Positions 10,049 through 48,761 of a stretch of DNA of 64,000 nt are shown here, piece after piece. The notes below the pieces were generated by a model. It saw nothing but the letters and a program-made list of their open reading frames with translations, was not told the DNA's origin and made no database searches. A program made the position numbers and the translations under genes. The stretch is from Phycisphaera sp. (GTDB taxonomy: Bacteria > Planctomycetota > Phycisphaerae > Phycisphaerales > Phycisphaeraceae). Every line of letters begins with the position of its first letter. Position 1 is the stretch's first letter. The stretch is from NCBI GenBank assembly GCA_016125215.1, contig WGMF01000006.1, positions 124,001 through 188,000 on the forward strand, given 5' to 3'.

Positions 10049-10573
10049 TCACGGTGACTCCGCGGCGGCGAGCGCAGCCTGGGCCGAGAGCCGTGTACCC
10101 GTCGCGGGCTCGAATGTCACCACGAGTGTCGCCCCTGTCTGCGCGGTGGAACGGTCTTCGAGCTTGAGCCTGAAGAGGTACGAACGCGTGATCGGGTCGT
10201 AGTAGAGCTTCTGCGAGACCAGGTCCTTGACGGGGACATCCCATCCATACAGCTTGCGTCCGTCGCCGGCTTGCGAGGCGCGCTCGGGGGTATACAACTC
10301 GAACCGGTAGACCCCCACGCCCTTGACCGAGTCGCCCATCTGGTCGAGCAGTTCGATCCGGGCACGCAGCACGGTGTCGCCGCCCTCGTTCATGAACTTG
10401 GACGAGGGGTAGACCCGCATCGCCACCGGCTCGATCATGAACTGACCTTCCGGATAAACATGCACAGACCCCCGAGATGAAAACGGCCCCTTGCCCCCCT
10501 TCCACTCGCAACCCGCGAACGCAATGAGCCACATCGCAAGAGCCACGGCCAGGTGAGAGCGCGTCAGTCTCAT
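10049..10573 (-). CDS. Putative lipoprotein, unknown function
   Basis: 174 residues from MRLTRSHLAVALAMWLIAFAGCEWKG, a lipoprotein signal with lipobox (FAGC). The mature part has beta-rich segments (VHVYPEGQFMIEPVAMRVYPSSKF; VLRARIELLDQMGDSVKGVGVYRFELY; TGATLVVTFEP), suggesting a sandwich domain in the periplasm. A TTG at 10608 could add 12 residues, but the ATG at 10573 places the signal correctly. It precedes the phage structural block on the same strand, but nothing links it to the phage. Confidence 0.6.
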   Translation of the reverse strand: MRLTRSHLAVALAMWLIAFAGCEWKGGKGPFSSRGSVHVYPEGQFMIEPVAMRVYPSSKFMNEGGDTVLRARIELLDQMGDSVKGVGVYRFELYTPERASQAGDGRKLYGWDVPVKDLVSQKLYYDPITRSYLFRLKLEDRSTAQTGATLVVTFEPATGTRLSAQAALAAAESP

Positions 10574-10618
10574 GCCATCAGCATAGAACCGGACCGTGTG
10601 TCCAGGCAAGCGTTTGTT

Positions 10619-10885
10619 TCACAGGCCCAGCGCCACAGCGACGGCACGCTCAATTGTCGCCAGCACCCGTGAAATGGCTCCGAGTTGGGCTTCGTCGAGG
10701 TCGGCCTCGCGCATCGCCTTGATGTACTCGGGGTTGCGTCGGAGGTTGTCGATGGTTGTGTCGATGAGGTTCACCCGGTCGATCGCCCGGGCAAGGTTCG
10801 GGTGCTCGCGGGAGAAAGAATCCCACTGGAGGTTCAAACGCTGGGCCACGAGGTCACGCAGGGGTTGGGGAGGGGTTGGGGTCAT
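10619..10885 (-). CDS. Small phage-block protein, hypothetical
   Basis: 88 residues from MTPTPPQPLRDLVAQRLNLQWDSFSREHPNLARAIDRVNLI, mostly helical and charged, with no membrane segment. Its ATG overlaps the stop of the preceding lipoprotein gene by 4 bp (10882-10885), so it is the last gene of the phage structural operon. No family is recognised. Its place beside holin-like and lipoprotein genes suggests a lysis or virion-accessory role, which is inference from position only. Confidence 0.5.
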   Translation of the reverse strand: MTPTPPQPLRDLVAQRLNLQWDSFSREHPNLARAIDRVNLIDTTIDNLRRNPEYIKAMREADLDEAQLGAISRVLATIERAVAVALGL

Positions 10886-11406
10886 GGGTTGTTTCCTTGT
10901 GATAGGGTGGGTTGAATCGTTGGCGTGGGCGTGGGCGCAAGCAGCATCCGTCCGAGCGACCAGCCCTCGGTGCCCAGGACGCTGATGAGTAATTGGTCCT
11001 GCTGGTCGAGCAGTCCGATCGCGTGTTGCTGGGCCTCGACTGAGGCCAGCAGGTTTTCGATTCGCTGCGTGCGTGACGCGGTGAGCCTGGCGTCTTGAAG
11101 CACGACCTGCTCCCGCGCAGCGGTGTAGGCGCGCGTCGCGTCGAGCACCCACTGCGGATCGAGGGACCCCCGCTCACGCAGGTCTTTTTCAAAAGCCGAC
11201 TCGAGTGTGTCCAGCACGAGCGCGGTGTGCTGTGATTGGAGCTGTGTGTCGTGTTCGAGATAGCCCGCTTCCTGTTCGAGGGATTGCTGGACCATCCTCA
11301 TCAGCGGCGTGACCGATGGCGGGGCTGCGCAGCCGGTGCAAACCACCGACAAGATCAGGGCTGACATGGCGAGCAGTGGATTACGGGTTGTGCTTGACGA
11401 TTTCAT
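10882..11406 (-). CDS. Phage-block lipoprotein, possible spanin-like
   Basis: 174 residues from MKSSSTTRNPLLAMSALILSVVCTGCAAPP, with a clear lipobox (CTGC). The mature protein is a long helical rod (QSLEQEAGYLEHDTQLQSQHTALVLDTLESAFEKDL...VLQDARLTASRTQRIENLLASVEAQQ). A lipoprotein with an extended helical periplasmic part next to a holin-like gene recalls the spanins that fuse inner and outer membranes in phage lysis of Gram-negative hosts; this is inference. The ATG at 11406 overlaps the end of the holin-like gene by 26 bp. Confidence 0.5.
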   Translation of the reverse strand: MKSSSTTRNPLLAMSALILSVVCTGCAAPPSVTPLMRMVQQSLEQEAGYLEHDTQLQSQHTALVLDTLESAFEKDLRERGSLDPQWVLDATRAYTAAREQVVLQDARLTASRTQRIENLLASVEAQQHAIGLLDQQDQLLISVLGTEGWSLGRMLLAPTPTPTIQPTLSQGNNP

Positions 11407-11684: not shown

Positions 11685-13484
11685 TCATCGCGGGTCTTCG
11701 ACCGTGGCCTCCACCACGGTGATCGGCCCGGCAAACGAGCGTGACCCCGGCTTGAGCCAATCCGTGCGCACCGAAGCGACCACGGCGTTGTGCGGGTTGA
11801 TCGCCTGCGGCCCGGTGTTCGCATCAAGACCGGGGCCGGCCGCGTGATGGATCACGTCCCCCGGTAAGAGTGTGGGCCAGGCGTCGCTGAGCGTGAGTCG
11901 CAGTGTGCGCGACTGCCCCACGGACGCATCCCGGTTCACCCGCTTGGTCAGCCAGGAGGTCATCGGCGGTGTGTCGTCACGTTCGAGCGAACCCAGCGCA
12001 CCCGAAGTGACCGCCGACCGGTGGATGCTCGTAGGATCGATGCGCTCAAACACGAACGCGGACCCCAGCTCGATCACGTTGACGGGCTGCACATCGATGA
12101 ACGGGTTGCCGACCCATCGGCTCACCTCAACGGGCAGAGGGCTCCGGAGGCTTGCGGTGACACGGACCCGCGCATCACCCGCTTGCGCCGCGGCAAGAAA
12201 CGCCGCGGGCAACGTGGCGCTGTCGAGATAAACACCCGCTCGATCGCCAAGCGCCTGGTCGCTGCCGTCGTAGCTCGCCCAAGTGGAGCCCGCGTCGGTG
12301 CTGACTTCGACGCTGAAGGGTTTACGCCGACCGGTTGTGTCGAGTGTGACGCAGGGCAACAACCGCAGCGGGTCACTGGGCACACTCAAGCCGACCCCGA
12401 TGGAACCGAAGAATGCCTGGATGTCGAACGCGGGTTGATCGAACGGCTCACCAGAAAATGCCCCGTCTTCGTTGAGCACCCAGAGGCGGTAGACATCGCG
12501 GTAGGTCTCGAAGTCGCTGTTGCCTGATCGGCTGTAGGTCGCGTCGCTCTGGCCCTCGAGCGAGGGGTCCCAGCCGTGCGCAAGGTTGAACGTTCCTTCG
12601 ACGCGCCATCCCTGCGCCCGGGCGACCCACTGGCGCGAACCGGCCCCTTGGCCTGACCTTTCAATCTTCATCACGGGATGTTGGGTGCCGGGCTTTTGAA
12701 GCCCCGGCAGGACGGTTTTGTTTCGCGATGGGTCACCTGTGACGGTGCGGGTCTCGTGGAATCGGCCGTTGACAAACTCGATCATCCTGCGGATGGATAA
12801 GCCGTAGCGATGAATGATCCGCATAAGCGCATCGCGCACGGACAGGCCCAGGGCGACGGGCGATACGAGGGGTTCATCCAATGTTGAAGTCGCCAACGGG
12901 TCCAACACCAGGTCCAGGCCACTCACAGCCGACCAATACGAGAGCGCTTGCCCAACGGTCCAGGTCTGGCCCTGATCGATGGGGACGTAAACCTCGCGGC
13001 CGGCAATCTCGTGGGTTTGTTCGGATCGATTGGCGTTGGAACCGACGCCGAGTGTGACGCTTTCGGGCAAGACCGCGGTGAGCGTGGCCTCGGTTAGGAT
13101 AAACGCCCGTTCGAGCGAGGAGTTTAACTGTTGGGTCCACTGTTCTTCGATCGCAAAGGCCCGCGAGTCGATACCGATAGACGTGTCTTGCGCGGGGACG
13201 GAGAGTTTGCCGACGCCATGCACGATCCATTTGACCGTGTCGTCCACAAGACGCATCGGTGAAGCGATCGCGCACCTGGCCCGGAGCCAGCGGTCGATCA
13301 GAGAGCCGTCGATCAAACGAGAGTCGCAGGTCATGGTCGCGGTGCGCTCATCCAACGGACCCATGACACGGAGGGTTTGCACGTTCAGCCGACTCTCCGG
13401 GCAACCGTCGATAAACACGACCGGCCCACGGGCAAACCTTGTGGAAGACCCGGTGTGTGGAGCCAACGTGGCACAGGCTTTCAT
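11685..13484 (-). CDS. Phage tail/baseplate-like structural protein
   Basis: 599 residues from MKACATLAPHTGSST. The ATG overlaps the stop of the upstream fibre gene by 4 bp, and GGAGG lies upstream, which decides the start. The sequence is beta-rich with aromatic/Gly turns and resembles tail-hub or host-interaction proteins that follow fibre genes in tailed phages; segments such as VYVPIDQGQTWTVGQALSYW and LGLSVRDALMRIIHRYGLSIRR may belong to a tail-hub fold. I do not recognise a specific family. The structural role is inferred from position between the fibre gene and lysis-like genes. Confidence 0.55.
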   Translation of the reverse strand: MKACATLAPHTGSSTRFARGPVVFIDGCPESRLNVQTLRVMGPLDERTATMTCDSRLIDGSLIDRWLRARCAIASPMRLVDDTVKWIVHGVGKLSVPAQDTSIGIDSRAFAIEEQWTQQLNSSLERAFILTEATLTAVLPESVTLGVGSNANRSEQTHEIAGREVYVPIDQGQTWTVGQALSYWSAVSGLDLVLDPLATSTLDEPLVSPVALGLSVRDALMRIIHRYGLSIRRMIEFVNGRFHETRTVTGDPSRNKTVLPGLQKPGTQHPVMKIERSGQGAGSRQWVARAQGWRVEGTFNLAHGWDPSLEGQSDATYSRSGNSDFETYRDVYRLWVLNEDGAFSGEPFDQPAFDIQAFFGSIGVGLSVPSDPLRLLPCVTLDTTGRRKPFSVEVSTDAGSTWASYDGSDQALGDRAGVYLDSATLPAAFLAAAQAGDARVRVTASLRSPLPVEVSRWVGNPFIDVQPVNVIELGSAFVFERIDPTSIHRSAVTSGALGSLERDDTPPMTSWLTKRVNRDASVGQSRTLRLTLSDAWPTLLPGDVIHHAAGPGLDANTGPQAINPHNAVVASVRTDWLKPGSRSFAGPITVVEATVEDPR

Positions 13485-16400
13485 GGTTTGGCCTCCAGGA
13501 GTTTGAGAGTGGTGGTCGTCACCGACACCGGCTCGACGGATTCCGACCACGGCGTTTGTTTCGCGTAGCCGTCGGCGGAGGTGTAACGCCAGGCGTATTG
13601 CGTGGGCAGCGTCGGGTGGGCGATGCCGGCGATGATTTCGTGTTGAAGTGGCGCGCGTTTGACGGTGAGCACGACATGGGTGGCCAACGGTTCGCCCGAA
13701 CGCGCGAGCAGCTCCACGATGGCCACCCGACTCGATTCAAGCGAACGTTCCCACGTCACGGTCAGTTTCAACGCGCCGTCCTCGCGATCAACCCGCCACA
13801 ACGGATGCGTCGGCCAGACAGGATCGCAAGGGACCGCGGCCACAACACTGTAAGAATTGGCCACACGCACGTGTGTGACGCCCGCTTCCGAGCGACCCGC
13901 GTCGTCGAGCCTGCGGACGACGTAGATCGCTTGCTCACCCTCGGCCGGCTGATTGCCCGTGGACAACGGCAACGCCAACTCATCCGACCGCATCGCCAAC
14001 ATCGGGGTGTCGGGGTCGAGTTCTTCCAGCGTCGCCATCGGCCCGAACACGTCCCACCCCGATCGCGGCAAAGGCACACGCATGAGCGGATCGCCCACGA
14101 GAAACAACCCGTCCCGCAGGATCGGCAGCGCACTGAACCACGCCTCGCCGAGCGTCCAACCCAACCGCAGCGCCTCGAAGAACCGCTTCACACTCGGGAT
14201 CACACTGACGGAAAACGCCCGCGGTGAGCCGGCGGCACTTGCGTAACCCGACGCCAGCGCCACGCCTACCCAGTCCGTCGGTGATCCGCTGCGCAACGTA
14301 GGCCCGGTCGCACCGATGTTGGACCACTGCCCCGCAAACACCCGGCTGCCCGAGGGCGATGCGAAAAACCCCGTCGGCGGTAAAGCCTCCGACCAGCCCC
14401 AGAAAAATCCGTCGTGCGCGATCGAATCAAAACCCACCTCCGCGCCCGGATCGCTCTGCGCACTAAGCTCAATCGGCAACCTCGTCCGCATCCGATCAAG
14501 GCTGCCCGACCAGGCCACCATCTCCTCGATCACCGCGTCCACCGTGCCGCCCGGTGTGGTGTAGGGATCAAGAAAGATCGTGCTCTGTTTCCCATCACCG
14601 ATACTGCCCTGCGAGACCGCGTCTACGCAGTCGAGTTGTGCCAGCGCGGTCGCAAGGTCCGGCGCATCCAGCCTCGCGGTCAAACGCCTCCCCAATAGAT
14701 TCCCCGCCGTCGGCCTCGCCATCGGCCAACACGAATTGAGCGGGTTGGTCGACGCCCCGCGCACGGCCGAGTCGTTGTGCAACAGGTCGGGCACCGCTTC
14801 GAGCAGCAGCCCCGTTCCCTCGAAGTCGACATACCCCGGCACACCGAAGCCCGTGAGCACACCGATACATTGCCCCCACAGCCCGTTGTCGGTGAGATAA
14901 CCCTTGATCGCAGCCACCATGTCGGCAAACTGTGCGGCGCTGAGGGTTTCACTTGTGGGCAGATTCAAGCCGATCAGGTTGGCATACGGCACACCACGCG
15001 ATGCGCGATACGCATCCGCCCATGTGATCGAATCGCTGTCATCGGCGTTGTAGACCACGCCCCAGCGCGCGGGGTCGTCCGCAAACTCGCTCGACGGTTC
15101 AACCCCAACAGGCCCGATGTATGCCGTGTCAATCGCAAACTCATCCAGGTCGAACGTACCTGTCGCGGCGCTGTCTTTGAGCGGGACACCAAAGTGGATG
15201 CCTCGCGCCGCCAGTCCCGCGAAACTCGCGCTTGCCGAGTCGGCCTCGATGCCGTTGACCCACAGCCTCGCGGTGCCCGTGTCGGTGTCGAGCGCCGCTT
15301 CGACGCAGTGCCAAGACAGGCCTTGCGTGAACGATGCGCTAAGCTGCGTGCCCCCTGCCACGTCCATCACCACCGTGCCCGTGACAGGTTCGACCGTCAC
15401 GCGCCAGGCCTGGCTCAAGGCGTTGTCCAAAACCCGCACCACGGTGGCCGACCCGCCCGACACCGCGACGTGGCCGACCACGAAACGCACGTGTAAAACG
15501 GGGATCGCCTGCGTGTAAACCTGCTCAAAGTACGACCCGTCCGTCCCGTTTGTCAGCGTGGCACGCACACCCAGTCCGTTTGTGCCGGACCTGCGTCGGT
15601 CGGGAAACGCGGCTGACTCGGATTGAGCCAATGCCACGTCTTCACCCTGCACGGGAGCGCTCGCCCACTCGCCCCACTGGGGGACTTCAAAGTCGAATCG
15701 TCGAGATCGGAACGCCACCGGCGGTGACGACGGAGTCGTGACCACCGAGGGCACGGTGAACACCGCGCGGTGGGTCAGGACACGGTAGTGCTCGAACGGG
15801 TTGCGGAAGAACTCGACCCGCTCTTCGCTGCTGACGGCACGTGCGAGCAGGATAACCTCGGCGATCTGCCCGGTGAAGTGCCAGGTGCGGTTGCTGCCGT
15901 TGCCACGACAACCGATCGCCACCGCCGCCGCGGTGATGTTGTGGGTCGGCGTCGTGGCCTGACCGCCCACCCCGTCGTTGAGGTAGACAGCCAGGTCTGT
16001 CGTGCTTTTGGCCACGATGCAGCCGAGGTTCCAATCGTTGACCGTGCATGAAGTAGCCGAGTCAGCCGAATAGGTCGATGGGTTGACCGCGTAGAAGCGC
16101 AGCTTGCCGCTGACCGTGCGGGCCGCGTAGTAGTGATCGCTGTCGGCGGTGGCGAACAGACTCAATGGACTGTCATTGTTAGTGGTCGTGGGGTAATACC
16201 AGAACAACGCTGTGAACGGTGGCACCAGCACGGGGGACGGGCCGGCGTCCGCGTATTGCAACGAGGCGGAGTTGAATGACATTGCTCGACCGAAACGGCG
16301 TGCCCCGTTGATCGTCGGCGAGCCGTAGACCGCCATGTCGGTCGCGCCCCGCTCCGAGCGGTCGAAGACCTTGAGGTTGGTCGATTGCAACCACAGAGGC

Positions 16401-16510
16401 CACATGCCCGCCAAGGCTGCAAGGCGCGGGTGCTGAAGCTCGACGGGCTGCGCGGAGTCCACGTCGGCCGGTCGCGGCCAGACCGTGTGAATGGTTCGAT
16501 GGGGATTCAC
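13481..16510 (-). CDS. Giant phage-block fibre: two LamG-like domains plus a TIGR03790-like domain
   Basis: 1009 residues from a GTG start directly after the stop of the previous gene. Residues about 45-235 form a LamG/concanavalin-like domain (ARRFGRAMSFNSASLQYADAG; FTGQIAEVILLARAVSSEE). Residues about 270-480 form a second one (LHVRFVVGHVAVSGG; GTARLWVNGIEAD; GTFDLDEFAID). Residues about 485-815 match the TIGR03790 pattern: GVVYNADDSDSITWADAYR, RGVPYANLIGLNLP, and VGDPLMRVPLP. The C-terminal 180 residues are fibronectin-like. A virion role is likely from context, perhaps glycan binding by the LamG domains. The activity of TIGR03790 proteins is not established. Confidence 0.7.
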   Translation of the reverse strand: MNPHRTIHTVWPRPADVDSAQPVELQHPRLAALAGMWPLWLQSTNLKVFDRSERGATDMAVYGSPTINGARRFGRAMSFNSASLQYADAGPSPVLVPPFTALFWYYPTTTNNDSPLSLFATADSDHYYAARTVSGKLRFYAVNPSTYSADSATSCTVNDWNLGCIVAKSTTDLAVYLNDGVGGQATTPTHNITAAAVAIGCRGNGSNRTWHFTGQIAEVILLARAVSSEERVEFFRNPFEHYRVLTHRAVFTVPSVVTTPSSPPVAFRSRRFDFEVPQWGEWASAPVQGEDVALAQSESAAFPDRRRSGTNGLGVRATLTNGTDGSYFEQVYTQAIPVLHVRFVVGHVAVSGGSATVVRVLDNALSQAWRVTVEPVTGTVVMDVAGGTQLSASFTQGLSWHCVEAALDTDTGTARLWVNGIEADSASASFAGLAARGIHFGVPLKDSAATGTFDLDEFAIDTAYIGPVGVEPSSEFADDPARWGVVYNADDSDSITWADAYRASRGVPYANLIGLNLPTSETLSAAQFADMVAAIKGYLTDNGLWGQCIGVLTGFGVPGYVDFEGTGLLLEAVPDLLHNDSAVRGASTNPLNSCWPMARPTAGNLLGRRLTARLDAPDLATALAQLDCVDAVSQGSIGDGKQSTIFLDPYTTPGGTVDAVIEEMVAWSGSLDRMRTRLPIELSAQSDPGAEVGFDSIAHDGFFWGWSEALPPTGFFASPSGSRVFAGQWSNIGATGPTLRSGSPTDWVGVALASGYASAAGSPRAFSVSVIPSVKRFFEALRLGWTLGEAWFSALPILRDGLFLVGDPLMRVPLPRSGWDVFGPMATLEELDPDTPMLAMRSDELALPLSTGNQPAEGEQAIYVVRRLDDAGRSEAGVTHVRVANSYSVVAAVPCDPVWPTHPLWRVDREDGALKLTVTWERSLESSRVAIVELLARSGEPLATHVVLTVKRAPLQHEIIAGIAHPTLPTQYAWRYTSADGYAKQTPWSESVEPVSVTTTTLKLLEAKP

Positions 16511-16957
16511 TTATTGAACCTCGTTGTTGCTGGTGTAGAGCCTGACCGTCGAACCGGACGCGGGGAAGGCCTGACCGCTCTTGTTGAGCAGGATGAACTT
16601 CACCTTCGCGGGGGGCAGCAGGAACAGGCCGCTCGTCAGGCGCTGCGCCGAGGTCGTGGCGCGAACGGGGATTTCAAGCAGGCGTTTGTGGTTGCCGGGG
16701 TCGACGCTGGACGAGCCGTCGTCGTAGTTGGACCCGTCGGGGGCCTGGAGCAAATAGAGTTGCACGTACCCCCCGGAAGCCGGGCTTGAAGCAAAAGTGA
16801 CGTTGAGTTCGATCAGGGCAAACTGGTCGAGGTTCGCGCTGTTATCGACCTCGGCACCGGCGTTGGTGCGGGCGTCGTTGGCCAGCGTGTTGAGCTCGGT
16901 GGTGAGTACGTCGCCCCGGCTGACCCAGGCTTGTTGCCATTGAATAGAGTTGGGCAT
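16511..16957 (-). CDS. Phage structural protein, small beta-rich
   Basis: 148 residues from MPNSIQWQQAWVSRGDVLTTELNTLANDARTNAG. A short helical N-terminus is followed by a beta-sandwich-like region (FALIELNVTFASSPASGGYVQLYLLQ; LTSGLFLLPPAKVKFILLNKSGQ; STVRLYTSNNEVQ). It resembles decoration or tail-fibre-associated proteins in phages of environmental bacteria. Its stop is adjacent to the GTG start of the giant fibre gene. Function is inferred from order and strand-rich composition. Confidence 0.55.
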   Translation of the reverse strand: MPNSIQWQQAWVSRGDVLTTELNTLANDARTNAGAEVDNSANLDQFALIELNVTFASSPASGGYVQLYLLQAPDGSNYDDGSSSVDPGNHKRLLEIPVRATTSAQRLTSGLFLLPPAKVKFILLNKSGQAFPASGSTVRLYTSNNEVQ

Positions 16958-16987: not shown

Positions 16988-17572
16988 TCATGCAGACATC
17001 AGCCCCGCAGATCGCAGTGCCGAGAGGATCGCGTCGACCTTGTCACTGATCGCCTGCACCTCTGACTGTGTGGGCGGGTTGGAAACGGTGAGCGACAGGT
17101 CCGCGATGGCGGTCGCTTTTTGATGGGACAAGAGCGACTCGAACCGCAGGTCGGTGATCTGGGTGATGACGCCGGTTTGCAACGTGACCGACGCAAGGCG
17201 GATATGCGGGGAGTCGGGGAAACCATTCGTCAAGGCGTCGATGCCCAGCGATGGGGACCCCGCGCCGTCTTCGATCCACAGGATGGCGGTGTCGTTGTTG
17301 TAAGACGAGAGGTCCTGCGTAGCGCCGGGGTAATCCAGCGCGACACCGTTGAGCGTACACCGGCCCGGTGCGATGCGGACGGTCGTGTCGTTGGCGTCGT
17401 CGCGCTCCACGCGCAGGACCCCTGCCGATGACTGAGCCAGGCGGTTGAGCGATCTCACGAGCCACGGGTAATACGGGACCAGGCCCTGGGGCGGGTATTC
17501 GATGCCGGTGGCCGCGTCACGGCTGCCGACGAGCGATTCGATTTCCGAAGGTGTGAGGTCGATATGGGCCAT
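16988..17572 (-). CDS. Phage structural protein, fibre/tail-associated
   Basis: 194 residues from MAHIDLTPSEIESLVGSRDAATGIEYPPQG. It has a beta-rich centre (TVRIAPGRCTLNGVALDYPGATQDLSSYNNDTAILWIEDGAG; IRLASVTLQTGVITQITDLRFE) like the receptor-binding or fibre-base segments of tail proteins, then a C-terminal helical stretch (TQSEVQAISDKVDAILSALRSAGL). It lies between the capsid remnant and other structural genes. No named family is recognised. Confidence 0.55.
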   Translation of the reverse strand: MAHIDLTPSEIESLVGSRDAATGIEYPPQGLVPYYPWLVRSLNRLAQSSAGVLRVERDDANDTTVRIAPGRCTLNGVALDYPGATQDLSSYNNDTAILWIEDGAGSPSLGIDALTNGFPDSPHIRLASVTLQTGVITQITDLRFESLLSHQKATAIADLSLTVSNPPTQSEVQAISDKVDAILSALRSAGLMSA

Positions 17573-17590: not shown

Positions 17591-18120
17591 TTACATCGGT
17601 TGCGTGGCACGGATCACGACCATCACGACGACGTTGTGGGCTTCGGTGGAGACCGTGCCCGCCGCGGTGCGTGTGAGGTCGACGGTGAGCAGTGAGCCGC
17701 GTGTGACGTTCTGTGTGCCGTCGGTCCTGATGACCGAAGCGGTCCCGTGGCCCTGCGCGGTGCAGCGGAAGCCCGAGCCGGCTGATGAGGTGATGGCCGG
17801 GTGCGTGGTGGTGAGTGTCGAGCCGTTGACGGACGCGGTGGCGGTGACGCCGTCGGTCCCCGTCGATGAGACGATGTTGGTCCCGACGCTGAGGACGATC
17901 GACTCGACGACACCGGTGACGGGGACCACGCCGATGAGTTTGCCGGTCTGGGATGCGGTGAGGTCGCCCTCGTGCCGGTAGCTTGGGTGTGTGGCGGCGA
18001 CCATGTGGTAGCTCTGCGCCCCGACGCGCTGCACGAGGAACCCGTTTGCCAGGTCGCGCAGGAGCACGAGGTCGTCGAGCAACACGTTGGGGTTACTCAG
18101 CACCAGCGCCGCGTTGGGGG
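17591..18120 (-). pseudogene. 3' fragment of a head-decoration or related virion gene, start lost
   Basis: About 175 in-frame codons (TPNAALVLSNPNVLLDDLVLLRDLANGFLV...NVVVMVVIRATQPM). The C-terminal part is beta-rich with Thr/Ser/Gly/Val repeats, typical of a virion surface protein. No plausible start with a ribosome-binding site is visible: the open frame continues upstream to 18460, but there it only mirrors the capsid start and intergenic repeats. The first codons coincide with the point where the capsid frame stops making sense, so the start was probably lost in the same deletion that removed most of the capsid gene. A GTG near 18103 could restart translation. Confidence 0.55.
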
Positions 18121-18245
18121 TCGCCGAGGTGGTCGAGCAGCGGGGTCTCGTAGGCGCTGACGATGCCGATGATGTCGGAAACGTCTTCCGCGATCTCGGG
18201 CAGCGAGGCGCCGGCGGCGTAGGTGGATTTACCGGTGAATGACAT
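18093..18245 (-). pseudogene. Truncated major capsid gene (N-terminal 50 codons, DUF5309/SU10-like)
   Basis: Starting at ATG 18245, with AAGGA about eight bases upstream, the frame reads MSFTGKSTYAAGASLPEIAE, then DVSDIIGIVS and AYETPLLDHLGDP, and hits TAA after 50 codons. The SDII...ETPLLDHLGDP pattern is the conserved N-terminus of DUF5309/SU10-like major capsid proteins, which are usually around 300 residues. It sits directly after the portal and scaffold genes, exactly where a capsid gene belongs. The rest of the gene is missing from this window, and the sequence continues in another frame into a different virion gene. This is a deletion or an assembly join; family assignment rests on the short N-terminus. 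Confidence 0.6.
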
Positions 18246-18413: not shown

Positions 18414-18968
18414 TTACGCCCCCGGCTTTCGTCGCAGACGCAGGTAGCGCAGCAGGTCACGGCGGTTGCCGGTGTTCACCGCATCGTCCGCCGCCTGGCG
18501 GAGTGTGTGGTGCGTGTGCTCCGCATCGCTTCGTGCGGGCATGGCCAGCGCGTGGCCGTTGGATCGCTTGCGGAAGAGATAGGGCTTGTGGCGCTTGAGT
18601 TCGTCCACAGCGAGTTGGATGTCGGGGTCGTCCATCTGCTCGACCGCGATCTCGGTCAGCAGCCGTGCCGCCTGGGCGTCGATGGTGTCGGAGTCGGAGA
18701 GCAGTTCGTCGATCTTCCGCCTGCGTTCGAGCTGGTCGATGGTCTGGCGGGCGTCGTCGAGTTGCGACGTGAGGGCGTCGAACTTCTGCCGCAGGTCCTG
18801 CAGCGATTGCTCGGCGTTCTGCGCACGTCGGCGGTAACGGATCGCCTCGGAGACGGGGACGAGCTTGTCCGGCGCTTCGGGTTCGCGTGTGACGACGGTG
18901 GAGTCGTGGTCGGCCTGGGCTTCGGCGGGCGAGGTGTCGTGCGGGGTTGGGTCGGTGGTTTCGGGCAT
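18414..18968 (-). CDS. Phage capsid scaffolding protein-like
   Basis: 184 residues from MPETTDPTPHDTSPAEAQAD. An acidic, disordered N-terminus (about 1-45) is followed by a coiled coil (RRRAQNAEQSLQDLRQKFDALTSQLDDARQTIDQLERRRKIDELL, about 50-95) and a basic C-terminus. This acidic/coiled-coil/basic design, with a position between portal and capsid, is characteristic of scaffold (GPO/DUF4355-like) proteins that guide capsid assembly. Another ATG at 18986 lies six codons upstream. Assignment is by layout and context rather than by a specific motif. Confidence 0.6.
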   Translation of the reverse strand: MPETTDPTPHDTSPAEAQADHDSTVVTREPEAPDKLVPVSEAIRYRRRAQNAEQSLQDLRQKFDALTSQLDDARQTIDQLERRRKIDELLSDSDTIDAQAARLLTEIAVEQMDDPDIQLAVDELKRHKPYLFRKRSNGHALAMPARSDAEHTHHTLRQAADDAVNTGNRRDLLRYLRLRRKPGA

Positions 18969-19022
18969 GAGGGTGTTCCTAATCAAGTGTGAGTATGTGG
19001 GCGGATACAGCGGCTTGTCGGG

Positions 19023-20498
19023 TTACGCAATGGGGAGGTCTTTGAGGCAGTCGGCGTAACCCAGTTCGGTGAGCACGCGCTCTCTGGGCACACCGAGTTC
19101 GAGTTTGATCTGGGCGTCCTTGAGTTTTTGCGAGGGGTCGTCGGGGATGCTCGGGGGCCAGTCGAGACGGACACGGCGTTCGTCGGGCGTGTTGGGGAAG
19201 AGACCGGTCACGTCGGCGGCGTGGAGGACCAGTTCGCAGATGCGTTCGATGCCCGCCCCGTAGGTGACGCGCTTCTTGGCGGTACGTGCGAGCAGGCCCA
19301 TGAGCACGATGCGAAGGGCGTTTTCACTGGTGAGGTTGCCGACCTTGTCACGGATCACACCGGCCGCGACGGGGCTGACACCGCTGGTCTTGTCCAGGGC
19401 CTCTCTGATCTCGGCAATGTGGGCGTCTTCGGAGGGGCTGGCGGCGTCTCCGCCGAACTCCTCAATGGTCGCGTCGGGGTTATCGCTGGCCCACATCTGA
19501 CCGGGGCCGACGGGGTGGTCGGTGAATTTCTCGATGCCCTTGCCCAGGTACATCTTGAAGCTCTGGAACGTGACACGGTTGGCACGGTCGGAGAGGCGGA
19601 TGTTCAATTCATCCTGCAAAGGCAAGAGCGGCTCGACCTCGCTCAGGCCCTCGTAGTGGAAGGGTTGCGGGAGGTTCTGGATATGGACGACGGGGATGCG
19701 ACCGAGGCGGTTGACCTCTTGCGTGTCGGGCAGCCGATGGTGGACCGGGCCGATGGTGGACTCAAAACTTCCGGGGGTCCAGATGAGGGTGCGTTCGATC
19801 ACACGGCGACGGGTGTTTATCGATCCGCCCCAGACACTATTTCGCAGGCGTGACGCAAAACTCTGGGTCTGGACCTCGTTGAGTTGTTGCGGGTAGTGGA
19901 CGATGAAGGCCACAACTTTGCGGTAATCACCGGGATCGAGCACGGGTACTGCACGGGGCGCTTCGATGAGTTCGAGTCGGATGTGTTCGCCTGCTTGTGA
20001 AGGGTCGAGCGGGCGGGAGAAGCTGCGCTCGGGTTCGCGCACCACCACGTCGGCGTAGCCATACACCGCGCCGAGCAGGGCCAGGTCCTGGTAGAACGAC
20101 ACCCCGCCGGCGGCGTTGATGACACTTTGTAAGAGTCCCTCGATCTGTCGGGCGCGGTCGGCATCGGGTGCGCAACTCTGCACCTTGACCGGTTCGCTGA
20201 ACATGAAGTCGACCAGGGCGTGTATCCGCCAGCCGATGTCGTTTTCGATGACAACTTCACGGGACGAACGGGCGCTGTCGGTGCCGAGTGCGGTAAACCG
20301 TGCGGGCAGGCCGCGCTCCTGGGCGAGGCGTGTGCGGGGGGATCGGGGACTTTCGCGATCGTTCTGAGGCGGGTTCCGAAAGTAGTCCCAGAGCTTCCTC
20401 AGTCTTGGCACGCGATCGGATAGGTGCTCTTCGAGGAGCAGGTCGACAAGGTCATCCGAGAGGGCGGGGGTCGAGACTGTGTCGTGGGTCTGGGGCAT
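19023..20498 (-). CDS. Phage portal protein (SPP1 gp6-like)
   Basis: 491 residues from MPQTHDTVSTPALSDDLVD, the usual portal length. It shows a portal core: LRKLWDYFRNPP at the start, DIGWRIHALVDFMFSEPVKV, a central GLSEVEPLLPLQDELNIRLSDR helix, ASPSEDAHIAEIREALDKTSGVSP, and LTSENALRIVLMGLLARTAKKR near the C-terminus, matching the wing, stem and crown layout of SPP1 gp6-like portals. The portal forms the dodecameric DNA entry ring at the capsid vertex and binds terminase. Its partner terminase is not upstream as expected but 22.7 kb away at 43.2-44.7 kb on the same strand. Confidence 0.85.
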   Translation of the reverse strand: MPQTHDTVSTPALSDDLVDLLLEEHLSDRVPRLRKLWDYFRNPPQNDRESPRSPRTRLAQERGLPARFTALGTDSARSSREVVIENDIGWRIHALVDFMFSEPVKVQSCAPDADRARQIEGLLQSVINAAGGVSFYQDLALLGAVYGYADVVVREPERSFSRPLDPSQAGEHIRLELIEAPRAVPVLDPGDYRKVVAFIVHYPQQLNEVQTQSFASRLRNSVWGGSINTRRRVIERTLIWTPGSFESTIGPVHHRLPDTQEVNRLGRIPVVHIQNLPQPFHYEGLSEVEPLLPLQDELNIRLSDRANRVTFQSFKMYLGKGIEKFTDHPVGPGQMWASDNPDATIEEFGGDAASPSEDAHIAEIREALDKTSGVSPVAAGVIRDKVGNLTSENALRIVLMGLLARTAKKRVTYGAGIERICELVLHAADVTGLFPNTPDERRVRLDWPPSIPDDPSQKLKDAQIKLELGVPRERVLTELGYADCLKDLPIA

Positions 20499-20729
20499 CG
20501 TGCTTCGGCTCCGGTTGGCGGATGTGGGCCACCAACCTCGGTCGAAGTGACGTTTTTGTGCGCTGCGGGGTGGCTGGGATGTGCTGGATGGCCGTATAAA
20601 GGCACGAAGTTCAATAGTTTTTGAATTTCAATGGCTGCGCAACACTCTCGAATCCGCCATGACAGAGCGTGCGGTGGGAGTATTGAAGGTCTTGCCAAGC
20701 CGACAAATTGGTGATTAAATAGTCACTCA

Positions 20730-22340
<1,611 letters not shown>

Positions 22341-43107: not shown

Positions 43108-43125
43108 GTAGGAATGGTAATAGGA

Positions 43126-43197
43126 AGACCGGGCTGGGGACAGCCCGGCTCGGTGGGACAGCCCGGCATCCGAGCCGGCGTGTCCCCACGCCGGTCC
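43126..43197. repeat. REP-like palindrome cluster, right of RAYT
   Basis: Carries the same two hairpins as the copy at 42511-42606 (CCGGGCT...AGCCCGG and CCGGCGTG...CACGCCGG) with one internal unit fewer. It is in direct orientation relative to the left copy. Confidence 0.85.
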
Positions 43198-43225
43198 TGT
43201 CTTCAAATCTGCAAGATCATCCGCA

Positions 43226-44668
43226 TCACATGTAATCCATCCGCTTCACCGGTTGCGTCGCCGATTCGAGATTCACCACGAGGTAACGCAGCGCGTCGCA
43301 CACGTGGTCCGGGCCGTCCTTGATCGGGGCGTCGCGCCAGGGGCGGTCGGGGTCGAAGTGGTACGAAGACAGACCCTCGATCAGGCGCGGGCATTTCGAC
43401 AAGATCAGGAGTGAGCCGTGGTCGAGCCTTCGTCGGACGCGGTCGATGCCCTCGTGCAACGATGAGGCGCGGTAGCGCACGACGTAACCCCGCTTGCGGA
43501 GCACGTCGATATCCGACACTCCCGTGTGGCTGTTGCGTTGTGCCCCGGCGGGGTCCACAGCTAACCACCTGGGCAGAGCGGAATGTTGCGCAGCGATGCG
43601 GTCGAGGTTCGCGTCGAGTGTCAGGTCGGACTGGACATACTCATCGGTGACAATGATCCTGCGCTGCTCGAGGGGTTGACCCTCGTCGATGAGTTTAGCC
43701 CGCAGCATCACGAGTGGGCTACGCACGCCAAAGTCCATACCGGCCACGGTGGGCACGCCATTAAAATCGAAGGCAGACACCTCTTCCACGACGTGTTTCT
43801 CCACGCGGAACGCGGGATACACGCACTGGTCCCTCCGGGGGCGCAGGCACATCATCTCGCTCTCCCACGTCTCGTCGCTGGTACGCCCGCGCTGCGTCAC
43901 CAGGTCGTCGATGGCCACAAAACCCTGAGCCTCTTAAGCCCGGCCCCCGCAATCCTTCCACAGGTTGCACGCCTGACAATCCCGCTCAGACGGGCAACGC
44001 TCAGCCACGTCGATCGCGCACCAGCGGAAGACAGTCACCCCCCTGCCCGGCGAGGTCAGCTCGCTCATCAAGCCGAACGGCTGGTGCATGGTCGAGAGGG
44101 TCTCGATGCTACCCCGGACAAAGACGTTGCCGCACAACCCCGAACGTGTCACGAGCTGCGCCGCCCGCCAGACGGCTCGATCAAAGAGCTCCACTTCGTC
44201 GCACCGCAGCTTGTGGACACGCAGCCCGCGCACCGCACGCTCCGACTGTGCCAGCACCTCGACACTGCTGCCATTGAACAGGGTCACGCGCCGCTGCGTA
44301 GGCTCGTCAAACAGGAACGGTCGGACGACCTTGAGCGAAACCAACCCGAGCAGGTAGCGGTGCATTCGGCTGGATTGTTCGAGGCTGCCGCCGAGCACGC
44401 GCACCTGGATGCCGGGCTTGAACAACATATCCAGCAGCGTTGCCACCGCGCCGAGCATCGTCTTGCCCCCGCCCCGGCTGGCCCAGACCACGCAATCGCC
44501 CCGCTCGAAAAAAGCGTGCGACAGGTAATCCATCGGCGAACGGTTGCCCTCGATGACGGGTCTGTCGGGCACGCGCAGACCCAGCACCCGCTCGACAAAC
44601 GAGGCCAGTTGAGCCGGGCAGCGCGGACGCACCGCGTCGAGGCGTTCGATCAGTGTGGGTTTTTTCAA
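43226..44668 (-). pseudogene. Phage large terminase (TerL) with one in-frame TAA
   Basis: Read through, this is 480 residues from a TTG start, the usual TerL length. The N-terminal ATPase has Walker A ASRGGGKT near 64-71 and an acidic LRCDEVELF Walker B region. A Cys cluster (CPSERDCQACNLWKDC) follows near 225. Codon 245 is TAA at 43936-43934, and the same frame continues EAQGFVAIDDLV to an intact nuclease domain with AGMDFG, AVDPAG and DGPDHVCDAL, which supply acidic metal ligands. No frameshift is needed. The stop could be a recent mutation, a sequencing error or a recoding event; a GTG at 43918 could restart the nuclease half. TerL packages DNA through the portal. Confidence 0.8.
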
Positions 44669-45126
44669 GACCCCTCACCCCCAAACGGGCCATCGGCGTC
44701 GACCGCCCGCTCTCCCGGGGAGATGACGTTTTGACGCCCGAGCAGTTGCCAGAGGTCTTGTCCCGCTTCGTCATCGGATGATCCATCATCAACCGACCGC
44801 AATCCGGGTTTGAGGTCCAGCCGTAATAAATCGACACACGCACGCCGCGCCAGGTCCTTGCTCCGCGTGTCGTCGGCTTCGAGCGTGGCCAGTTTGATCA
44901 GTCGGCCGGCCGCAAGCAGGCGGTATCGGCTGAGCAGCACCTGCGTCTGCAAATACGCCAGCCGACACAGACCCTCCAGTGCGGTCACGCCCTCGTCGTG
45001 CGCCGCCCAGTCCGACAGCGCCTCGAGCGTCACCTTGTGCCGCTGTGCCAGCGCCACCACGTCCTGCCTGGCCGCGACGAGGTCCGTAAGCATCTGTTCA
45101 CGTTTGTCTTTGCCGATCTTCCTCAC
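44665..45126 (-). CDS. Candidate small terminase subunit / DNA-binding packaging protein
   Basis: 153 residues from a GTG start. The N-terminal 50 residues (MLTDLVAARQDVVALAQRHKVTLEALSDWAA) look like a helix-turn-helix (DVVALAQRHKVTLEALSDW); the middle is helical and may oligomerise, and the C-terminus is acidic. A position directly before TerL with 4-bp overlaps on both sides, the HTH and the size fit a small terminase that recognises the packaging site. No specific family motif is recognised, so this call is largely positional. Confidence 0.6.
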   Translation of the reverse strand: MRKIGKDKREQMLTDLVAARQDVVALAQRHKVTLEALSDWAAHDEGVTALEGLCRLAYLQTQVLLSRYRLLAAGRLIKLATLEADDTRSKDLARRACVDLLRLDLKPGLRSVDDGSSDDEAGQDLWQLLGRQNVISPGERAVDADGPFGGEGS

Positions 45127-45722
45127 GCCCCCTCCTTCACGCCGCCCAACACACAGCGAAGCAAGGCTTCTTCACGGTTCGGGCCGACCTCGTGCAGCCT
45201 GCGTTCGAGCCGAGTGCGCTGGTCGAGTCTGAGAAAGAAATGGACCGCTAGGGGCATGTCTTCGAGGTCGAGCGGTTCACGCACCTGCGGCGGGTGGTTG
45301 ATTTCCACGAGCTTTTGCAGGGCGTCCGCGTCCTCGGGAAGGAGTGAAGCCAGCGTGTCGACATCGAAGTGCTGCTGCAATTCTTCGACCAAAGAAGCCC
45401 GCTTCCGGGGGTCGTCGCGGCCCTGCAGACGGTTGAGCGTGGCCAGCAGGACCAGGGCTTCGTCATCGCCCACGTCCCAGACCACGCACCGTGCCTCGGT
45501 TTGGTTGAGCCTCCGCAGCGCCTCGGCACGGTGGTGCCCGTCGAGCACCTGGTACCCCGCGTCGTGTGGTCGAACGATCAACGGCGGGTAGCGGTCCGTT
45601 CGGCCGATGTGTTCCACGAGCTTGGCCACCATCGGCTCGGGCATCACGTTCGAGTTCGACGGGTGCGCGTGGAGTTGATCAAGCGGGATCACCTGAAATG
45701 AAGTGGCGGGTGTGTCGCTCAC
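45123..45722 (-). CDS. ParB/sulfiredoxin-like domain protein of the terminase operon
   Basis: 199 residues from a GTG start. Residues about 8-110 match the ParB N-terminal fold: IPLDQLHAHPSNSNVMPEPMVAKLVEHI, YPPLIVRPHDAGYQVLDGHHRAEALRRL (the DGHHR motif) and the helical follow-on. The rest is helical without the usual ParB HTH. Phage proteins with this fold occur as nucleases, regulators or nucleotide-using enzymes. Its ends overlap the neighbouring genes by 4 bp each, so it is co-translated with TerS and the GNAT-like protein. Confidence 0.75.
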   Translation of the reverse strand: MSDTPATSFQVIPLDQLHAHPSNSNVMPEPMVAKLVEHIGRTDRYPPLIVRPHDAGYQVLDGHHRAEALRRLNQTEARCVVWDVGDDEALVLLATLNRLQGRDDPRKRASLVEELQQHFDVDTLASLLPEDADALQKLVEINHPPQVREPLDLEDMPLAVHFFLRLDQRTRLERRLHEVGPNREEALLRCVLGGVKEGA

Positions 45723-46558
45723 GATGGGCTGGCTCCTGGTGAGGGGTGTGAGGCGTGGTCAAACAGGTAGTAGACCGGCTCGCACAGGAGGCGTTGCCTC
45801 GCCAGTTCGAGCTGGGTGGTGAGTGTGGACTCAATGCGCGAGGTTCGGTGGGTGCGGGCAAACCAGGTGCGGACTTCGCGGACAAACCACCTGCGTGCGT
45901 GCTCGGGCATGTTGTCAATCTTCGTGCCGAGTGGCCCGATGGCGGCCAGTTCGACGGGGTTGATACCCGCGCTGCTGAACGCGTCGCGCAGCCGCTGGTC
46001 GAAGGGGTGCGGCGGGCGGGGGTACGCCCTCATCCCCGCGACCTCGAAGAAGGGGTTGACGTGCCCCATCGCGGCGATGGCCTCGGTGTAGCGCGTGACT
46101 GGATTTTCGAGGGTAGCCCTGACGAGCCGCACCGCCAGCCCCAAACCGCGCCACTGCGGGTGGACGACGACTCGGCTGACCACACGCAGCTCATCACACA
46201 ACAACCGCGCCCGGGCACGCACGTCCGTGATCGAACGGTAACGCTCGTGCAGCGCCCAGTCTCGCATGCGACAGGCCAGACTCGGCAGTGATTCGACAAG
46301 CACGCCCGCCACGGATTGCGAACCCTCACGACCGGCAAACCGCGCAGCGGACGAGAGGTGATCGTGGCGCAGCACCCAGACGCGCGTCGCGGTGCCGGGG
46401 TGTTGTGACCGGTAATGGAACTCGGCCAGCGCGTGGTAATCCCGCATCGAGCCGACCTCAAGCCGCAGCCCATCACCGGCGAGGATTTTTACGTGGGTCT
46501 GACGCATCCGGTCGAACCTCTGCGTGACTGATAGTTTGTTAGAGTCACGGGCGTTCAT
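45719..46558 (-). CDS. GNAT-fold acyltransferase-like protein
   Basis: 279 residues. The GNAT core is seen at about 40-180: LRLEVGSMRDYHALAEFHYRS, then VAGVLVESLPSLACRMRD, the acetyl-CoA binding stretch VSRVVVHPQWRGLGLAVRLVRATLE and the final TEAIAAMGHVNPFFEVAGM. About 100 further helical residues follow. This set, next to an ABC ATPase, matches the two halves of the fused proteins I recall as COG2401 (ABC ATPase joined to a predicted acetyltransferase); here they are separate genes with a 4-bp overlap. Phage Mu Mom, a DNA-modifying enzyme, has the same fold. The substrate is unknown. Confidence 0.7.
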   Translation of the reverse strand: MNARDSNKLSVTQRFDRMRQTHVKILAGDGLRLEVGSMRDYHALAEFHYRSQHPGTATRVWVLRHDHLSSAARFAGREGSQSVAGVLVESLPSLACRMRDWALHERYRSITDVRARARLLCDELRVVSRVVVHPQWRGLGLAVRLVRATLENPVTRYTEAIAAMGHVNPFFEVAGMRAYPRPPHPFDQRLRDAFSSAGINPVELAAIGPLGTKIDNMPEHARRWFVREVRTWFARTHRTSRIESTLTTQLELARQRLLCEPVYYLFDHASHPSPGASPS

Positions 46559-47289
46559 GGCTTGGGGCTGGTTAGGGTTGGGTTGCGTTCAAGGACCTCG
46601 ACGCTCTCGCCCAGGCCTTTTTCGATGAGTGTGTCGGGTTCGAGCGGCTCGAGCAGGTCGTCGTGCGTGGTCGCGGCGACGAAACACACGGGCGTGAGGC
46701 ACCTGCTGACCCACCGACGGATGTTGCGTGCGATGACGGTGGCGGTCAGGCGGTCGAGTGTGGCACCGAACTCGTCAGCCAGCACGACCATGAGTGGGCC
46801 CTGTCCGTTGCTCGCGGGATGACCGGGTTGTTCTTCCGCCATCGCCATGACCTGCGCCAGTCGCAGCCGGTAGCGCTGGCCATCGGAGAGTTCGCTGGGT
46901 CTGCGCAGCATGACGAAGGCGTCGCCCAGCCCCGCGAGGCTCAACACACGCACAGCCCGTTCGAGGGGCAGGTGATCGAACACATCGACGAGCGGTCGTT
47001 CAGCCGGCTCGGGCAGGTGGTGGAACGCCATCACCCGGACGCGGGTGTCGTGCAGCAATTGATTAGAGATCAGCCGAAGGATCGAACTCTTCCCCCCGCC
47101 GCTCGGCCCGGTGATGAAAACGACCTGCCCCGGTCGCAGAGTGAGTTTGATGGGGGGCACGACGCGCACGTCCCGCCCACCCTCGACGCCCAGACCGAAC
47201 ATGGCCGCGACCCGCATGACGCGGGGCGAGGGATCGACATCGGTACGCACGGTCCATTGCAATTGCAGGGGCAGACAGGTTTCACCCAC
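46555..47289 (-). CDS. Soluble ABC-type ATPase of the terminase operon
   Basis: 244 residues from a GTG start. It has Walker A FITGPSGGGKSS near 58-69, a signature-like LSDGQRYRLRLAQ near 134-146, and Walker B LMVVLADEFGATLD near 166-179, followed by a switch His in ATTHDDLL. There are no membrane helices and no transporter partner, so it is not an import/export ATPase. It is the first gene of the four-gene run ending with TerL and overlaps the GNAT-like gene by 4 bp. The likely role is ATP-driven handling of DNA or of the partner acyltransferase (inference). Confidence 0.8.
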   Translation of the reverse strand: MGETCLPLQLQWTVRTDVDPSPRVMRVAAMFGLGVEGGRDVRVVPPIKLTLRPGQVVFITGPSGGGKSSILRLISNQLLHDTRVRVMAFHHLPEPAERPLVDVFDHLPLERAVRVLSLAGLGDAFVMLRRPSELSDGQRYRLRLAQVMAMAEEQPGHPASNGQGPLMVVLADEFGATLDRLTATVIARNIRRWVSRCLTPVCFVAATTHDDLLEPLEPDTLIEKGLGESVEVLERNPTLTSPKP

Positions 47290-47333: not shown

Positions 47334-47750
47334 TCAGGGCATGGCTTGAAGCAGTCGGCGGGCATCGAGGGCGTGTCTGCGGACCTGGTAGATCGACAAT
47401 CGGCAGTGTCGGGCGGCTTGGCGGTAGCTTTGTTTGCGGATGAATAGCGCCTGGGCGACCTTTCGGGTGGGGGTGGGCAAGACGTGGCCGTGCAGGACCA
47501 TCCGGCGGTACAACGGGCTTTTCAAGTGACTGACCAGGCTATGGATGCGCCGTTTCACCCGCACCGGGGCCTGGCCGGTCAGCCTGCCGATGTCCGTGAA
47601 GGTCAGCCCGTTCTTGTAGACCTGCTCCAGCAGGAGGCGTTCAGCGGGGTCAAGATGCTGGGCCAGGGCCAGGATGGTCTCGACCGCGTCGCGCTGCTCG
47701 ACCCGGCGGGCTTGCTGTTCCACGGTGGTTTTTGATGCCATGTCACTCAC
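47334..47750 (-). CDS. Small sigma-region-4/HTH regulator
   Basis: 138 residues from a GTG start with GGGGG about six bases upstream; an ATG at 47741 is an alternative. The protein has two HTH-like parts: LDPAERLLLEQVYKNGLTFTDIGRLTGQAPVRVKRRIHSL, resembling sigma70 region 4, and SYRQAARHCRLSIYQVRRHALDARRLLQ. This looks like a phage-encoded transcription factor, possibly driving late genes downstream, the terminase operon. It lies directly upstream of the ABC ATPase with a 44 bp gap and is divergent from the S24 repressor. Confidence 0.65.
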   Translation of the reverse strand: MSDMASKTTVEQQARRVEQRDAVETILALAQHLDPAERLLLEQVYKNGLTFTDIGRLTGQAPVRVKRRIHSLVSHLKSPLYRRMVLHGHVLPTPTRKVAQALFIRKQSYRQAARHCRLSIYQVRRHALDARRLLQAMP

Positions 47751-47785: not shown

Positions 47786-47832
47786 ATTCTACAAGAGGTT
47801 CAATTGTTATTCAACCCCGTCGGTGCCACAAT
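47786..47832. promoter_or_regulatory. Divergent promoters with shared 20-bp operator dyad
   Basis: For the minus-strand genes, TTGAAT (47814-47809), a 17-bp spacer and TAGAAT (47791-47786) make a good sigma70-type promoter. For the plus-strand repressor, TTGTTA (47804-47809), 17 bp and CACAAT (47827-47832) is a weaker match. An imperfect dyad, GGTTCAATTGTTATTCAACC at 47797-47816, covers the -35 boxes of both, so a bound repressor would block both. Confidence 0.6.
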
Positions 47833-47909: not shown

Positions 47910-48761
47910 ATGCTCAAATCCATCGGACAGATCGTGCGCGAACGCCGGGAGGCGCTGGGCCTGACGCTCTCGGCCCTGGCGGAGGAGGTCGGCTCGACCA
48001 AGAGCTACCTCTCGATGATCGAGAACCACCGCGTGGCCAACCCGCCCTCCCGGCCGCTCGTCGCGGCGCTCGAACGGGCGCTGCGGATCAAAGATGGCGA
48101 GCTGTCGCGTGCCGCCGACTGGCACCTCACGCCGGCCAAGGTGAAAAAAGAAATCGCCCGCCTGAGCGACCGAGCCGACGCCGGCCGAAAGCTGGCCCGC
48201 TGGCTCGCCGATTCCGCCAAGCGGCGCGGCGACGGGGCGCGCAGTCTCGACGAACTCTTCAGGACCGGCGAACTCGAAGACCGCATCGTGGCCGCGCTGG
48301 GTTCGGATGATCCCGACACACCCACCCGTCCCCGGAACTCGCTCGACGCCTTTGTGCCCGTGCACATCCACGTCCCCCTGATCAACAACGTGGCTGCGGG
48401 CTACCCCACCGGTTTTACCGACCTCGACTACCCCGCGCAGGTGGCAGATGAATACGTCTCCTGCCCTGACCTGGGCGACCCGACCGCTTTTGCAGCGCGC
48501 GTCGTCGGCGATTCGATGATGCCCGACTACCGCGAGGGCGACGTCGTCATCTTCTCCCCGCAGGCCAAAGTCGCCGACGGGAACGATTGCTTCATCCGCC
48601 TCGAACCCCACCACGAGACGACCTTCAAGCGCGTCTACTTCGAGGGCGGGGGCTTGATCCGCATGCAGCCGCTCAACCCGCGATTTGCCCCGCGCACCGT
48701 CGAACGCACAGACGTGGCCGGCCTCTACCGCGCCGTCTGGCGGATGCAGCAACTCGGTTAG
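47910..48761 (+). CDS. XRE-S24 family repressor (CI/LexA-like)
   Basis: 283 residues from MLKSIGQIVRERREALGLTLSALAEEVG with AAGGAAGG upstream. An N-terminal XRE HTH (about 5-60) is followed by a helical linker and a C-terminal peptidase S24 domain (about 140-280) with the Ser/Lys dyad in GDSMMPDYREGD and TTFKRVY. S24 repressors cleave themselves after DNA damage with RecA help, which releases phage genes. It is divergent from the HTH gene of the terminase operon, so it probably represses that operon. The gene is intact. Confidence 0.88.
   Translation: MLKSIGQIVRERREALGLTLSALAEEVGSTKSYLSMIENHRVANPPSRPLVAALERALRIKDGELSRAADWHLTPAKVKKEIARLSDRADAGRKLARWLADSAKRRGDGARSLDELFRTGELEDRIVAALGSDDPDTPTRPRNSLDAFVPVHIHVPLINNVAAGYPTGFTDLDYPAQVADEYVSCPDLGDPTAFAARVVGDSMMPDYREGDVVIFSPQAKVADGNDCFIRLEPHHETTFKRVYFEGGGLIRMQPLNPRFAPRTVERTDVAGLYRAVWRMQQLG

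Follow-up and report, generated by a model that had tools for sequence, protein, structure and literature searches.

A vertically inherited, phage-derived packaging system of Phycisphaerae that resembles a gene transfer agent, and its apparently decaying copy in one Phycisphaera genome

We analyzed a stretch of 64,000 nucleotides from Phycisphaera sp. (assembly GCA_016125215.1, contig WGMF01000006.1, positions 124,001 to 188,000), hereafter called the window, focusing on a cassette of minus-strand genes for an ABC ATPase, a GNAT-fold protein, a ParB-like protein, a putative small terminase subunit (TerS), and a large terminase subunit (TerL). The cassette is probably the regulation-and-packaging locus of a vertically inherited, phage-derived, split-locus particle system of Phycisphaerae, for which a gene transfer agent (GTA) is the likeliest identity. 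This analysis established which genes the system contains, that they lie at split loci, co-occur, are inherited vertically, and are under purifying selection, and that the present copy has two lesions. The system in this genome appears to be dead or dying.

The cassette and its divergent repressor gene occupy the following positions in the window; profile matches are given in parentheses.

43226..44668, minus strand: TerL frame (phrog_2 in the N-terminal part, phrog_10250 3.8e-14 in the C-terminal part), with a TAA at 43934-43936
44665..45126, minus strand: small protein, putative TerS by position and conservation in relatives
45123..45722, minus strand: ParB/Srx-like protein with a DGHHR motif (phrog_723 1.5e-14; ParB_N of Pfam sub-threshold)
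45719..46558, minus strand: GNAT-fold protein (phrog_886 5e-13; Pfam GNAT matches sub-threshold only)
46555..47289, minus strand: soluble ABC ATPase (ABC_tran 2.5e-10, phrog_293)
47334..47750, minus strand: sigma-region-4-like helix-turn-helix (HTH) protein, the first gene of the cassette (Sigma70_r4 7e-7, TIGR02937 1.7e-11)
47910..48761, plus strand: XRE-S24 (LexA/CI-like) repressor, divergent from the cassette (Peptidase_S24 1e-16; HTH_31 and HTH_3 of Pfam)

A sequence-only reading of this DNA had described five overlapping minus-strand genes. The five open reading frames (ORFs), from the ABC ATPase to the start of TerL, were recovered with overlaps of 4 bp each at 46555-46558, 45719-45722, 45123-45126, and 44665-44668. 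The profile matches agreed with its ABC, GNAT, and ParB (DGHHR) gene classes, those of GNAT and ParB to Pfam being sub-threshold. The ORF that it had named a small HTH protein and TerS is present, and 30 of 40 relatives keep it ahead of TerL, so that its place and conservation suggest TerS; a family match was not obtained for it in the profile searches. The repressor, the sigma-region-4-like gene, and a portal-scaffold-tail cluster at 10.0-20.5 kb of the window are additions to its list. In the alignment of relatives, the ABC ATPase keeps Walker A, the LSDGQ signature, DE, and the H-loop.

The structural cluster is separated from the cassette and comprises the following features.

19023..20498, minus strand: portal protein, SPP1 Gp6-like (PF05133 3.9e-14, phrog_104 3e-19, phrog_64 3e-17)
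18414..18986, minus strand: scaffold-like coiled-coil protein, cluster c2 (homologues match head scaffold, phrog_2303 6e-4 and PF06810 7e-4)
18105..18245, minus strand: remnant of the major capsid gene (codons 1-47 only, 81% identity to an intact homologue)
16988..17572, minus strand: tail-collar-like protein, cluster c10 (weak matches)
16511..16957, minus strand: ORF with no function assigned
13481..16510, minus strand: large virion-structural or fibre-like protein, cluster c6 (phrog_8510 1.3e-7; kept in relatives)
11685..13550, minus strand: conserved structural-cluster protein c11, without a family match
10882..11406, minus strand: small lipoprotein-like protein c20
10049..10609, minus strand: c8, the final gene of the cluster

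In relatives, the portal is accompanied by the scaffold, a major capsid protein (PF17236, 5e-89), other genes of the cluster, and a holin-like small membrane protein.

The cassette and the structural genes were strongly associated across genomes. Among 101 related genomes, the GNAT gene was found in 60, essentially as a single copy, the PF05133 portal in 59 (this window, at 19.0-20.5 kb, included), and the PF17236 capsid in 58. The portal was present in 52 of the 60 cassette genomes versus 7 of the 41 others (Fisher p = 1.2e-12), the capsid in 51/60 versus 7/41 (p = 5.8e-12), and portal and capsid co-occurred with p = 8e-20. The association held among class genomes from other orders, where the capsid accompanied strong TerL matches in 74/85 versus 8/116 (p = 2e-33); the underlying total, 201, was estimated from the genome numbering. 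The two loci lay on one contig, 10-82 kb apart (median 38 kb), in 27 of 30 genomes. The ordinary prophage portal and capsid families PF04860 and PF05065 were sporadic in these genomes and unassociated with the cassette (p = 1.0 and 0.81).

The layout of the cassette is also stable. In 40 mapped loci the repressor stands divergent from a run of sigma-like gene, ABC, GNAT, (ParB, TerS), and TerL, with host genes on the flanks that differ by family; no structural gene adjoined TerL or the cassette, and no integrase was seen beside the cassette in these loci. Eighty further loci from named genomes, nearly all Phycisphaerae or Planctomycetota, gave the same picture, with ABC and GNAT as a single ORF in 23 of them. 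ParB and TerS were undetected in many loci of family f2, which keep ABC, GNAT, and TerL. One locus of another planctomycete family (L250, G308) has the order HTH-ParB-ABC-GNAT-TerL near trigger factor and clpP, and no structural genes were recognized alongside it. Downstream of TerL in the window there is only a REP-associated (Y1) transposase-like gene (42619-43206), followed by host genes; repeat-rich stretches that resemble each other (ccggcgtggggacacgccggctcgg) flank the transposase-like gene near 43200-43140 and 42600-42530.

The linkage to packaging genes proposed by the sequence-only reading thus proved recurrent, as the cassette order was found in dozens of bacterial genomes and in unrelated phages. 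Phages of Salmonella, Escherichia, Pseudomonas, Rhizobium, and Stenotrophomonas carry ParB(-ParB)-ABC-GNAT-small-TerS-TerL-portal, small insertions aside; in the linear record of SSU5 this order wraps round the ends, and the region covered in Cyrano stops short of TerL. SSU5-like, nickie-like, and Rhizobium X66-like phages share the order but are complete genomes of 100-120 kb with a phrog_145 portal and, in SSU5, a phrog_212 head, two families almost absent from these planctomycetes. Searches of viral contigs gave no match for the GNAT query and only distant or short contigs for TerL. The TerL profile also returned cyanovirin matches, which may be spurious.

Inheritance appears to follow the hosts. 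In the TerL tree, a single branch set off each of the four host families represented by two or more members, and the number of label changes was the smallest possible (4). TerL distances correlated with those of the portal and of a flanking host regulator gene (r = 0.88 each) and with those of the capsid (r = 0.73). In close pairs, the dN/dS values of TerL, portal, and capsid lay mostly at 0.1-0.3; those of GNAT were higher. Walker A, Walker B, and the three nuclease acids of TerL are invariant or nearly so in relatives. This purifying selection on TerL, portal, and capsid points to DNA packaging in use. A C-x5-C-x2-C-x5-C motif at residues 225-240 (43946-43994) was likewise invariant or nearly so in 41 TerL proteins and is possibly metal-binding.

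The copy in the window departs from this pattern at two places. The large terminase had been taken as a single intact gene; however, an in-frame TAA lies at 43934-43936 within the frame running from 44668 to 43226, and TerL is therefore not one intact gene. Aligned relatives have Lys or Arg-type residues at this position, mostly Lys, and the frame was open in 40 of the 40 relatives first examined. A later HMM search scored the TerL of this genome at 688 bits with "1 TAA". The broken frame still encodes Walker A, DE, the nuclease acids D312, D372, and D458, and the four-Cys motif. The second lesion is in the capsid gene, whose remnant (18245-18105) passes into unrelated sequence after codon 47. 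PF17236 gave no match across the whole of this genome, and the cluster genes c3, c9, and c15, which follow the capsid in relatives, are absent from the cluster in the window. An ORF of about 170 codons (17591-18104) lies downstream of the remnant and has no clear counterpart in relatives. Thus, intact TerL and capsid frames were not found in this copy, one being interrupted by a stop codon and the other reduced to 47 codons, and because of these two lesions the copy is probably non-functional. Assembly errors in an intact copy are a distinctly improbable explanation: the genome is split over 58 contigs, but errors would have to account for two independent lesions within one genome, for a capsid gene that breaks off within a stretch contiguous with the portal and downstream genes, and for the loss of PF17236 from an entire genome listed as 98% complete.

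The promoters suggest how the two loci may be controlled. The following elements were located.

47797..47816, no strand: operator-like palindrome GGTTGAATAACAATTGAACC in the divergent promoter, one base off strict TTCA-N8-TGAA
47768..47785, minus strand: direct repeat ACC-NN-AC-N4-ACC-NN-AC, found upstream of the portal in relatives too
20610..20625, no strand: operator-like palindrome TTCAAAAACTATTGAA of the cassette-promoter form, upstream of the portal

The repressor adjoins the cassette in 31 of 40 relatives. Its family has the Ala-Gly site in 32 of 32 members and the Ser and Lys in 31 of 32 each, as expected of self-cleaving S24 proteins, and autocleavage is predicted. TTCA-N8-TGAA palindromes occur in 15 of 32 cassette promoters of relatives, the spacer being 9 bp long in one of them; the background is 0.027 per 300 nt. 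Of 21 portal upstream regions, only that of this window has such a palindrome. For the direct repeat, the counts are 14 of 32 among cassette promoters and 6 of 21 among portal upstream regions. With a matrix built from the cassette promoters only, the portal upstream regions scored above random stretches with a combined p of about 1e-11, for windows and a motif that were not chosen blind. A gene for a sigma-54-type AAA+ regulator with a GAF-like N terminus (20730-22340) is divergent from the portal gene and is there in many genomes of family f1; it might control the structural cluster.

We propose the following working model. The S24 repressor would keep the cassette off through the palindromic operator, and DNA damage would inactivate it by self-cleavage. 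The sigma-region-4-like protein, a possible activator, would then switch on the cassette and, through the common direct repeat, the separate portal-scaffold-capsid-tail cluster. The ABC, GNAT, and ParB proteins may prepare or handle DNA for packaging, and TerS and TerL would load it through the SPP1-type portal into SU10-type heads. Host DNA would be packaged, released, and delivered.

GTAs are defined by caudoviricete-derived particles, mostly random host DNA, endogenization, incomplete self-packaging, vertical inheritance, and delivery to other cells (PMC9662315). Caudoviricete-derived particle proteins are recognized here from genes alone (TerL, PF05133 portal, scaffold, PF17236 capsid). 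Full endogenization, often at several loci in GTAs, is represented by two chromosomal clusters among host genes, and vertical inheritance with co-diversification by the agreement of the TerL tree with GTDB families and by the distance correlations. Since three of the six features are thus found, on sequence evidence, we describe the system as GTA-like rather than as a proven GTA. The split loci make incomplete self-packaging likely. RcGTA (Rhodogtaviriformidae) and other GTAs also have caudoviricete-derived head and packaging genes, several loci, vertical inheritance, and purifying selection (PMC9662315), whereas the Phycisphaerae system is in another host phylum and has an SU10-type capsid, an SPP1-type portal, an S24 repressor, and ABC-GNAT-ParB accessory genes. 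Planctomycetes are unmentioned in the text of that paper, and our literature search found no paper tying them to a GTA of their own.

Several observations weigh against the GTA interpretation. No tail tube or tape measure was recognized in the structural clusters, and the tail-like genes differ from lineage to lineage. Some genomes, including the complete ZRK34 (G071), have the cassette without portal or capsid. The host phylogeny used here consists of GTDB family labels and one flanking gene and is not a genome tree, and the direct repeat was first noticed by eye within the same data. The solitary cassettes, the unrecognized tail tube, and the two lesions of this genome would also suit a domesticated phage head system that has lost DNA transfer, namely a defective prophage kept for lethal or protein-filled particles or for phage interference. 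We regard this as unlikely, given the purifying selection on the TerL ATPase and nuclease residues, the portal, and the capsid. The PADLOC families match the cassette only by generic ATPase or HTH similarity, which speaks against such a role, and a reading of the cassette as a defence system was rejected on the same matches.

A remnant of an ordinary recent prophage is very improbable, even though every gene is phage-derived. The system is single-copy across the order and class, its tree tracks host families, and its two loci lie apart among host genes with no integrase seen beside the cassette in the mapped loci. The sporadic, unassociated PF04860 and PF05065 and the near absence of phrog_145 and phrog_212 also led us to reject a prophage. 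A full prophage of similar gene order does exist in another planctomycete class (L242), with repressor, ABC-GNAT fusion, ParB, TerS, TerL, portal, and capsid in one run; it differs in its contiguous structural genes, its TerL of the phrog_38 type, its phrog_145 portal, and its phrog_1357 capsid. We retain the GTA-like system as the preferred interpretation.

The role of the ABC-GNAT-ParB trio was considered separately. Because of its stable place ahead of the terminase, the trio is suggested to act on DNA or on packaging proteins. The sequence-only reading had compared the ABC and GNAT genes to COG2401, and the comparison is apt: in addition to the 23 fusions among the 80 loci, one phage homologue is annotated "MK0520 protein, ABC-type ATPase fused to a predicted acetyltransferase domain". 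The cassette ABC precedes or is fused to GNAT as in the COG2401 type (MK0520), the resemblance being one of architecture and annotation. The GNAT protein has the canonical acetyl-CoA motif RxVxRVVxxPxxRGxG. Its predicted model (mean pLDDT 88.7) aligned to many GNATs at Z 11-12.6, with protein and small-molecule GNATs at 11.6-12.6. RimI/NatA-type protein acetyltransferases scored 11.6-12.2 and phage Mu Mom 11.5, effectively a tie; Mom shares the GNAT fold and is no closer than RimI or NatA.

The same reading had proposed that the GNAT, ABC, and ParB proteins chemically mark DNA before packaging in a Mom-like manner. Its packaging-linked part holds. The marking part we consider quite unlikely, although the equal fit of the model to RimI/NatA and Mom counts neither for nor against it and does not decide the refuting condition set by that reading, a GNAT protein matching an ordinary protein acetyltransferase. 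Marking would fit the stable linkage of the trio to terminases in phages and chromosomes, the ABC-GNAT fusions, and the presence of Mom among the structural matches (rank 3 in the BFVD fold search). Yet NatA and RimI fit equally or slightly better, no sequence similarity of the GNAT protein to Mom was found, and the many f2 loci without detected ParB and TerS still retain ABC, GNAT, and TerL.

The capsid gene of relatives is a site of insertion. Serine-integrase mobile elements were found inside it in six genomes (L294, G007; L295, G077; L284, G380; L285, G063; L289, G022; L292, G543), at codon ~55-60 in five of them and at ~325 in G543. The elements of G007, G077, and G543 also carry genes for a protease-capsid fusion (phrog_4523) and for a protein resembling primases and helicases. 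Such capsid-encoding elements are possible satellites of the GTA-like system. Tentatively, the class may possess an ancient GTA of its own with DNA conditioning by ABC, GNAT, and ParB, parasitized by serine-integrase elements that insert in the capsid gene and supply their own capsid.

The cassette, portal, and capsid are present, as a set that looks intact, in the cultured strain Poriferisphaera heterotrophicis ZRK32 (CP066225, G034; L063, L270), which is reported to release hexagonal particles of ~30 nm with nitrate or ammonium (PMC10945688). The deposited Phage-ZRK32 (OP650935) was considered as the product of the GTA-like locus and rejected, with no nucleotide or protein similarity between them. 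A link of the particles to the locus is only a possibility, because the deposited phage sequence is unlike it.

If the GTA-like interpretation is correct, a whole class of bacteria, in which about half of the sampled genomes have a strong TerL match, would possess a built-in DNA-transfer machine. It would represent a separate GTA origin, one that differs in the types of capsid and portal, and its recognizable SOS-type switch would make induction directly testable in cultured strains. The ABC-GNAT-ParB trio would also be placed in a setting where gene deletion can assay its role in packaging.

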